DNA of 35,926 bases from Pseudomonadota bacterium (GTDB lineage: Bacteria > Pseudomonadota > Alphaproteobacteria > Rhodobacterales > Rhodobacteraceae), in contig CAUJIU010000099.1 of NCBI GenBank assembly GCA_963205075.1, forward strand, positions 1-35,926, read 5' to 3'. The notes beneath the pieces were generated by a model. It saw only the letters and a list, made by a program, of their open reading frames with translations, had not been told where the DNA came from and ran no database searches. Positions within the stretch are counted from its first letter, which is position 1. Each line of letters opens with the position of its first letter. This document shows, one piece after another, positions 3,669-5,727 of this stretch. The position numbers and the translations under genes were made by a program.

Positions 3669-4019
3669 CTAGCCGGCGGCCGAGCCGGCATCCGGCGGCG
3701 GACAGAAGACCTCGTAGAGACGCTCCAGGATCGGCACCAGGCGCGGATCGGCGATCCGGTAGCGGATGATCCGCCCCTGCCGCCGCCCGATCACCAGTTC
3801 CTCCGCCCGCATCCGCGCCAGCTGGCCCGAGACATAGGACTGGCTCGACCCGAGCGCCACTTCCAGCTCACCCACCGACCGTTCGCCGTTCAGAAGCGCG
3901 CAGAGCAGGCGCAGCCGCGCCGGGTTGGACAGGATCTTGAGCAGCCCGGCCGCTTCGTCTGCGGCGGCTTCCATCGCGCCCGCCGAAAAGTTGATCATCT
4001 CGGCCACCGACCAATGCAT
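3669..4019 (-). CDS. ArsR/SmtB-family repressor of the SqrR/BigR (sulfide/persulfide-sensing) type
   Basis: This 116-residue winged-helix regulator has its recognition region at SVGELEVALGSSQSYVSGQLARM (split around residues 48-70) and its wing at RRQGRIIRYRI. Two cysteines fall in the sensor positions: Cys40 in LRLLCALL and Cys106 in LYEVFCPP. In Rhodobacter SqrR the sensing pair is Cys41/Cys107, so spacing and context agree closely. Those proteins release DNA when polysulfide links the cysteines. The metal-binding ELCVCDL motif of ArsR is absent (GERSVGELEVAL instead). I place the start at the ATG at 4019, preceded by ATAGGA, because the longer frame upstream is arginine-rich non-homologous sequence. 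The divergent neighbour encodes a TIGR01244/Blh-type protein, a known partner of BigR-like regulators, which supports the assignment. Confidence 0.82.
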   Translation of the reverse strand: MHWSVAEMINFSAGAMEAAADEAAGLLKILSNPARLRLLCALLNGERSVGELEVALGSSQSYVSGQLARMRAEELVIGRRQGRIIRYRIADPRLVPILERLYEVFCPPPDAGSAAG

Positions 4020-4327
4020 TCCTATCTTGCGATGTTTGCACGCTAGACCAAGTCGGTCAAACTTGCGAGCGGTTCCCGCACTCCGCATGGTCGGGACCCG
4101 GGGCAGCGCCAAGGGCCGGGCCATGGCGGGCCCGAACGCCCGGCCGGTCGCCGCGGCCGCGACCCACCGGGGTCCGAATCACCGGCGCCGGCTGGATGGC
4201 TGCCCCTGCGCCGTCGCGGTTCCGCCCGGGCGCGCCCCGGCCATCGCCTCACCGGCCCCGCAAAATGCCGCAATCCCGGCAAGACAACGGCTGGACGCCA
4301 TCGCCGGGCGACGCTAGATATCCGCAC
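4020..4327. other. 308-bp divergent intergenic region between the ArsR-family gene and the TIGR01244-type gene
   Basis: There is no convincing gene here. Reading frames that cross it are proline/arginine-rich shadows. Near the repressor end are an imperfect palindrome GACCAAGTCGGTC (4046-4058) and, on the minus strand, a TTGACC hexamer overlapping it, which could be a -35 for the repressor gene. The central part is very GC-rich. No ATTC-N8-GAAT type SqrR site was found by eye. Confidence 0.4.
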
Positions 4328-4339
4328 ATGCTGGATATC
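4317..4339. promoter_or_regulatory. Inverted repeat spanning the start codon of the TIGR01244-type gene
   Basis: GATATCC (4317-4323) and GGATATC (4333-4339) are perfect 7-bp arms around a 9-nt spacer that contains the ATG (4328-4330). It could be an operator for the divergent repressor or an mRNA hairpin that hides the start codon. There is no good ribosome binding site upstream. Confidence 0.35.
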
Positions 4340-4753
4340 AGACCCCTCGACGCAACCTACGCCGTCTCGCCGCAGATCACCCCGCAGGACGTGGCGACCA
4401 TCGCCGCGGCCGGCTTTCGCACGATCATCTGCAACCGCCCCGATGACGAGATCCCGGAGGACCTGCACGCCGCCAAGGTTGCGGCGGCGGCCGCGGCGGC
4501 CGGTCTGGATTTTGTCAACATCCCGGTCACGCACCAGACCCTGAACGAGTCGGTCCCGCCGCAGATGGCGGCGGTGGCGGCATCCAGGGGCCCGACACTG
4601 GCCTATTGCGCCACCGGCACCCGCTGCTCGATCGTCTGGTCGCTGGGCCAGGCCGGCAAGATGCCGGTGGACGAGATCCTGGCGGCGTCGGCCCGGCACG
4701 GCTACAACCTGAGCCACTTCCGCGAGGAACTGGACGAGCTGTCCGCCGGCTGA
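4328..4753 (+). CDS. TIGR01244/DUF442 family phosphatase-fold sulfurtransferase (Blh-like N-terminal domain)
   Basis: The protein has 141 residues. MLDIRPLDATYAVSPQITPQ opens a compact dual-specificity-phosphatase-like fold; FRTIICNRPDDE follows at residues 30-41 and the active loop YCATGTRC at 93-100. The loop C94-x4-R99 has rhodanese length rather than the C-x5-R of true tyrosine phosphatases, as expected for this family. A second cysteine (C100) directly follows the arginine. In Blh proteins of BigR operons this domain precedes a persulfide dioxygenase-like domain; here it stands alone. With the SqrR/BigR-like gene divergent to it, a role in handling persulfide sulfur is the best inference. 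The start at 4328 begins the conserved domain, although no strong Shine-Dalgarno precedes it. Confidence 0.82.
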   Translation: MLDIRPLDATYAVSPQITPQDVATIAAAGFRTIICNRPDDEIPEDLHAAKVAAAAAAAGLDFVNIPVTHQTLNESVPPQMAAVAASRGPTLAYCATGTRCSIVWSLGQAGKMPVDEILAASARHGYNLSHFREELDELSAG

Positions 4754-4818: not shown

Positions 4819-5727
4819 TCACTGATCCCTGGGCAGGTCGATCGCCGGGTTGGGCGCCTCGGCAAGTTCGGGTGCCTGCGGCAGTTCCAGCCGCACCGCG
4901 CGCCGCCCGGCCACCTGGCCGAGCCGCGCCCTGGCCACCTGAAGCCCGTCGGGCGCCTCGATCGAGACCGAGCCGATGCCGCTGCCGGTCAGGGCCACCA
5001 CCTGCCCCACCTCGAAATCGCAGGCCGCACTCAGCGGCATTTGCAGGCGATGCAGCACCGCCTGAAACCGCGCCGGCGCCGCGCCGACCACCTCGCCCAG
5101 GGCCGCCGACCAGTCCGACCGCTGGTCCCGGCTCTCCGGCTCTGGCGGCTCCGGCTCCGCTTGCGGCACCAGGATCGCCAGTTGCCCCTGCCGCTTGCCC
5201 TCGCCCAGCTCCAGCGCGAACTCCTGCACCCGCAGCACCCGCGCCGAGATCATCTGCCGGGCCAGCCGGAGGCTGGCGATCTTGCCACGCGGCGCATATC
5301 CCGGCGCCAGCGCGGTTTCGGCCAGAAATCGCGCCAGCAGCGGCTCTGACAGCGCCGCGTCGGTGCGGGTCATGGGGCGCAGGGCGGCAGGCCGGCTTTC
5401 TAGGCGGCCCGTGGTCTGGATCTCGGCCATTGCCGCCACCAGTTCGCGATCGAGCACCGCGAGCCCGCAGCCGCCCGCCCCGTCCTCCAGCCGGACCAGC
5501 AGCCGGTCCGGCTCGATTGCGCCCAGAACGTCGTCCGCGCTCCCGCAAAGCGCCGGGCCGGCCTGCGCCACCAGATCGAGCCCGATCGCGAACTGGGCGG
5601 CGCGCGCCAGATCCAGCCCGAGATCCGCCACCGCGCCCGCCCCTGGCCCATGGTTGCGGTTGGGGTTGGGGTTGCGGTTGCGGATCATCCGCCCCAGCAC
5701 GTCGTGATTGCCCATCCTGCCCTGCAT
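4819..5727 (-). CDS. FliM/FliN (SpoA/C-ring) C-terminal domain protein, orphan
   Basis: This is a 302-residue protein. The last 90 residues (ALGEVVGAAPARFQAVLHRL, then MPLSAACDFEVGQVVALTGS and ISIEAPDG-like strands) have the SpoA domain pattern of the flagellar C-ring proteins FliM/FliN: a helix, then 'l..l.vGdvl.L' strands. The N-terminal VLGRMIRNRN and the middle region (VLGAIEPDRLLVRLEDG) resemble the shortened FliM-like proteins of Rhodobacteraceae. No other flagellar gene is near, so a motor role is inferred from the domain only. A hexanucleotide repeat lies within codons 17-26 and encodes alternating Asn with Arg or Pro. AAGG 10 nt upstream supports the ATG at 5727; an ATG four codons later is the alternative. 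Confidence 0.68.
   Translation of the reverse strand: MQGRMGNHDVLGRMIRNRNPNPNRNHGPGAGAVADLGLDLARAAQFAIGLDLVAQAGPALCGSADDVLGAIEPDRLLVRLEDGAGGCGLAVLDRELVAAMAEIQTTGRLESRPAALRPMTRTDAALSEPLLARFLAETALAPGYAPRGKIASLRLARQMISARVLRVQEFALELGEGKRQGQLAILVPQAEPEPPEPESRDQRSDWSAALGEVVGAAPARFQAVLHRLQMPLSAACDFEVGQVVALTGSGIGSVSIEAPDGLQVARARLGQVAGRRAVRLELPQAPELAEAPNPAIDLPRDQ
5652..5681. repeat. Tandem hexanucleotide repeat, five units of GGTTGS, inside the FliM-like gene
   Basis: The units are GGTTGC, GGTTGG, GGTTGG, GGTTGC, GGTTGC in direct succession. On the coding strand they give alternating Asn with Arg or Pro near residues 17-26. As a multiple of three, unit gain or loss would change length without shifting the frame. 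Confidence 0.9.

Follow-up and report, generated by a model that had tools for sequence, protein, structure and literature searches.

The bigR-blh operon of Xylella and Agrobacterium encodes the cysteine-pair repressor BigR together with Blh, a fusion of a DUF442 sulfurtransferase domain and an ETHE1 domain; H2S or polysulfide oxidises BigR and activates the BigR operon, and the DUF442 domain of Xylella Blh, taken on its own, is active as a thiosulfate:cyanide sulfurtransferase (PMC5823870). In A. baumannii, BigR controls the yeeE-yedE-pdo2 operon, which had been found earlier in Serratia (PMC7315123). The published site of the R. capsulatus repressor SqrR is ATTC-N8-GAAT (PMC9774250). NMA1982 (PDB 2f46), a stand-alone TIGR01244-like protein, has been reported as a slow phosphatase.

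The stretch of DNA analysed here, 35,926 nucleotides from a member of the Rhodobacteraceae and called the window throughout, contains an ArsR-type repressor gene divergent from a TIGR01244-type gene, and both open reading frames were found in the place and opposite orientation that the original prediction had given them (Table 1). The repressor belongs to the ArsR winged-helix family (Pfam HTH_5, 39.3 bits). Among solved structures, it comes closest to R. capsulatus SqrR (PDB 6o8k-6o8o, 1.9e-20) and Xylella BigR (3pqj, 2.7e-17), and the gap-free alignment of its two cysteines with the SqrR/BigR pair upholds, at the level of sequence, its assignment to the SqrR/BigR type. SqrR shares the cysteine positions and has a similar operator type, but it lies on a tree branch apart from the orthologue group of the window's repressor and its reported targets differ. 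The window has the BigR cysteine pair and the DUF442 domain in common with the bigR-blh operon, whereas its DUF442 protein is stand-alone and divergent and its repressor falls outside the BigR equivalog NF040642, with 76.1 bits against a curated cut-off of 155. The A. baumannii operon matches the full clusters of Rhodobacteraceae in gene set, in that a cysteine-pair ArsR repressor is linked to a persulfide dioxygenase and to a transporter of the YeeE/YedE kind; in the clusters, TIGR01244 is a gene of its own and not a fused domain as in Blh. In contrast, the window has lost the transporter and the dioxygenase, and TIGR01244 alone remains beside the repressor. We consider it likely that the window locus is a reduced BigR/PigS-type sulfide-detoxification (yeeE-yedE-pdo) cluster of Rhodobacteraceae, responsive to persulfide through the mechanism proposed below.

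Table 1. Features of the repressor/TIGR01244 locus in the window.
Feature	Position	Strand	Remarks
SqrR/BigR-like two-cysteine ArsR/SmtB-type repressor	3669..3998	-	109 aa; Cys33/Cys99; likely start ATG 3998
Repressor reading frame with the start of the original prediction, ATG 4019	3669-4019	-	116 aa; Cys40/Cys106
Stand-alone TIGR01244/DUF442 (BLH_phosphatase) protein, predicted sulfurtransferase	4328..4753	+	141 aa; C94-x4-R99 loop
FliM_C-like gene, convergent	4819..5727	-	Syntenic neighbour in 25/29 orthologous loci
Candidate operator ACATCGCAAGATAGGAATGC	4016..4035	-	Degenerate copy of the orthologues' 20-bp palindrome ACATTTCAATATTGAAATGT
Possible repressor promoter TTGACC-N17-AAACAT	4032..4060	-	Putative, read from the sequence; overlaps the candidate operator

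The genes around the pair are GapR, a 71-aa protein without family match and the FliM_C-like gene, and no dioxygenase or sqr gene adjoins it, as had been noted. The FliM_C-like gene is kept beside the cluster even at loci without any sulfur genes; it probably stands outside the sulfur response. Orthologues of the repressor were searched for in 295 genomes of the same family and in a genome-contig scan; they share about 54-79% identity and, where named, all belong to Rhodobacterales. Gene order and cysteine conservation were counted over 29 non-redundant loci, the window included, at each of which the repressor, the dioxygenase, both YeeE-type genes, TIGR01244 and the FliM-like gene were mapped. 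Every sulfur gene at these loci is divergent from the repressor. The full order dioxygenase-YeeE-DUF6691-TIGR01244 was found at 8 of the 29 loci, YeeE-DUF6691-TIGR01244 at 10, dioxygenase-TIGR01244 at one, and TIGR01244 alone at four (the window, L089, L097 and L050). The inner genes match Sulf_transp (YeeE), DUF6691 and Lactamase_B. Six loci (L049, L086, L087, L090, L092 and L093) have an orthologous repressor, its cysteine pair intact, with no sulfur gene alongside.

Since many genera of Rhodobacteraceae share both proteins as well as the way they are arranged, the pair is, on comparative grounds, much more than a chance juxtaposition. Comparison of the loci shows the gene order of the ancestral cluster and how it was lost step by step. 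Because a persulfide dioxygenase and/or YeeE and DUF6691 lie between the repressor and TIGR01244 at orthologous loci, the absence of the dioxygenase from the window locus is, judged by gene order, a secondary loss and not a separate minimal design. The original prediction of a minimal persulfide-response pair thus holds for the types of protein, which the alignment and the TIGR01244 score bear out, but not for a distinct minimal design. A translated search of the gap at 4036-4327 revealed no decayed remnants of YeeE or dioxygenase genes. Because the repressor tree was built on few columns and leaves many forks unresolved, only broad statements were drawn from it: the window's repressor pairs with L081 (95/85), to judge by its coordinates the Loktanella sp. 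locus L054, and the branches of SqrR, BigR, YgaV and the second copy in the same genome as the window are different ones. Given that L081, this nearest relative, retains both transporter genes, their loss from the window lineage probably postdates the split between the two. L089, L097 and L050 sit elsewhere in the tree, which suggests separate losses there.

Neither YeeE nor DUF6691 turned up elsewhere in the genome, although the assembly is only 88% complete and the loss is not certain. Another contig, C138, encodes a persulfide dioxygenase whose match to the Blh model covers the model's C-terminal half (373 bits). There, a Crp/Fnr regulator, the dioxygenase, a second TIGR01244 protein and a SulP sulfate permease stand in a row (L040, 4124-8045); the enzyme is therefore not adjacent to the pair, yet not missing from the organism. 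This row corresponds to Blh with its two parts encoded as separate genes and next to another type of regulator. On contig C110 (L041, 2914-6834), a second SqrR/sHdrR-like ArsR gene adjoins a DsrE2-type gene, and the same stretch holds genes for a GcvH-like lipoate-binding protein and for CCG-domain and 4Fe-4S proteins. This stretch looks like an sHdr/LbpA sulfur-oxidation cluster, and the organism is therefore probably a sulfur oxidiser.

A 20-bp dyad upstream of the repressor is common to about 20 of the orthologous loci and is perfect (ACATTTCAATATTGAAATGT) in L098 and L100; it resembles the SqrR site without being identical to it. Using a matrix built from 17 distinct orthologous sites, with the window's own site left out, we found that the copy at 4016-4035 scores 17.9 bits, the highest value in the 36-kb window, where the next independent site reaches 6.7 bits. 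Shuffling the 330-bp intergenic region 1000 times never gave a score this high, whereas the best score among 20 shuffles of the whole window was 22.9 bits, and the case for the operator therefore rests on position and conservation and not on the score alone. The window's copy is among the most degenerate (leave-one-out scores of the others, 14.9-38.4 bits) and keeps 5 of the 10 palindromic pairs. In a pattern search of the genome it was the only copy with fewer than three mismatches; the pattern had been widened to include this site, so that its own zero mismatches are meaningless and the informative part is the absence of any second good copy. The matrix scan gave no clear operator in L097, a relative with the same direct pair, or in L050. 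We regard the 20-bp palindrome at the repressor promoter as the best candidate operator. A perfect 7-bp inverted repeat, GATATCC-N9-GGATATC, lies over the TIGR01244 start (4317-4339); it was discarded as a second operator, having no operator-matrix score and being a short repeat that is not unlikely by chance. The possible repressor promoter recurs with the same layout in L089 (TTGACA-N17-AAACAT), and in both loci the operator overlaps its second hexamer, which is weak in the window; the consensus scan did not pick out this candidate. BigR, too, has its binding site at the -10 region of the operon that it controls (PMC5823870).

From these features we infer that the repressor senses persulfide and binds DNA, that the TIGR01244 protein is a sulfurtransferase and that the operator continues to govern its gene. 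The reduced ArsR-fold repressor would sit on the palindrome at its own promoter until persulfides or polysulfides joined its cysteines via a short sulfur bridge, upon which it would leave the DNA. The repressor gene would then be transcribed, and the divergent TIGR01244 gene probably too. Through its Cys94, the TIGR01244 protein would pass sulfane sulfur to or from low-molecular thiols and in this way supply the persulfide dioxygenase on contig C138. Between the operator and the TIGR01244 start lie 293 nt, compared with 64 nt in L089; in YeeE-bearing loci, about 53-230 nt separate the operator from the YeeE gene. Control over the distance seen in the window is plausible. The distance, together with the operator's overlap with the repressor's own promoter region, is also what would be expected if the repressor regulated only itself or distant genes, with TIGR01244 expressed constitutively and the adjacency a leftover of the ancestral operon. 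The six loci at which the repressor has no adjoining sulfur gene point the same way, as does the failure of the consensus scan to find a promoter for the TIGR01244 gene. However, the divergent TIGR01244 gene has been retained in 23 of the 29 loci, and distant targets are not evident, the genome holding no second good operator. We consider such a leftover possible but rather unlikely.

The partner scored 139.6 bits with TIGR01244 (curated cut-off, 85.85). It did not qualify as a Blh fusion (NF040641, bifunctional sulfur transferase/dioxygenase), with 72 of the 625 bits required and a match to the N-terminal part only. Its loop, C94-A-T-G-T-R99, has the rhodanese length that had been noted in this stand-alone Blh-type domain, and C94 and R99 are invariant in 25/25 aligned TIGR01244 proteins. 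An AlphaFold model built from seven relatives was confident (mean pLDDT 96.5), and in the fold comparison NMA1982 ranked first, ahead of DUF442 proteins and PTP/dual-specificity phosphatases. NMA1982 is also the nearest solved structure (1.3e-23, 41% identity), with a nearly identical C-x4-R loop (CATGTRCS in the window, CRTGTRCS in NMA1982) and a DUSP-like fold, and its phosphatase activity depends on the Cys and Arg (PMC10716126). By this token, the partner could be a protein phosphatase of the NMA1982 type, and the pair would couple sulfur sensing to dephosphorylation. We hold this to be improbable. The turnover of NMA1982 is very low (4.4e-5 per s; PMC10716126), and its catalytic-acid Asp71 is aligned with Thr71 in the window protein, which thus has no WPD-loop Asp; among the aligned relatives, only L084 has Asp at that position. 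In addition, the DUF442 domain of Blh is a proven sulfurtransferase (PMC5823870), and the surrounding genes at the orthologous loci are those of sulfur metabolism. By homology to this domain of Blh, the window protein is predicted to be a sulfurtransferase.

The sensing cysteines had originally been numbered 40 and 106 and compared with Cys41 and Cys107 of SqrR. Their equivalence stands by alignment, but the near-match of residue numbers is accidental, since it hangs on a start codon under the candidate operator, and the alignment was used in its place. Given that the operator covers this codon (4017-4019) and that the starts of the orthologues fall downstream of the operator, ATG 3998 appears to be the likelier start, and the cysteines of A. 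baumannii BigR, at 34 and 100, are close to the resulting positions here (PMC7315123). Loss of the cysteines among orthologues had been named as a finding that would overturn the prediction; both are kept in 29/29 orthologues. That they sense a metal or general oxidants and not persulfide is improbable in our view: the repressor does pass the generic metalloregulator ArsR/SmtB model (NF033788, 73.2 bits; cut-off, 55), and BigR was initially reported to be a redox switch (PMC5823870), but both cysteines stand exactly at the SqrR/BigR positions and the linked genes belong to persulfide metabolism and not to metal transport. Very unlikely, too, is that the sensor and TIGR01244 persist in this clade of Rhodobacteraceae after the detoxification genes have gone because sulfur is handed by the sulfurtransferase straight to the sensor cysteines; if so, the last conserved pair would be a signalling unit and not a detoxification unit.

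Collectively, the window pair is a described cluster in eroded form, largely ordinary, and not a new minimal system. Across the loci, a known sulfide-response cluster can be seen in successive stages of loss, with TIGR01244 as the sulfur gene most often retained next to the sensor, and the conserved candidate operator predicts targets of this branch of repressors. No principle is changed, and the comparison of these loci would aid the annotation of sulfur regulation in Rhodobacteraceae.
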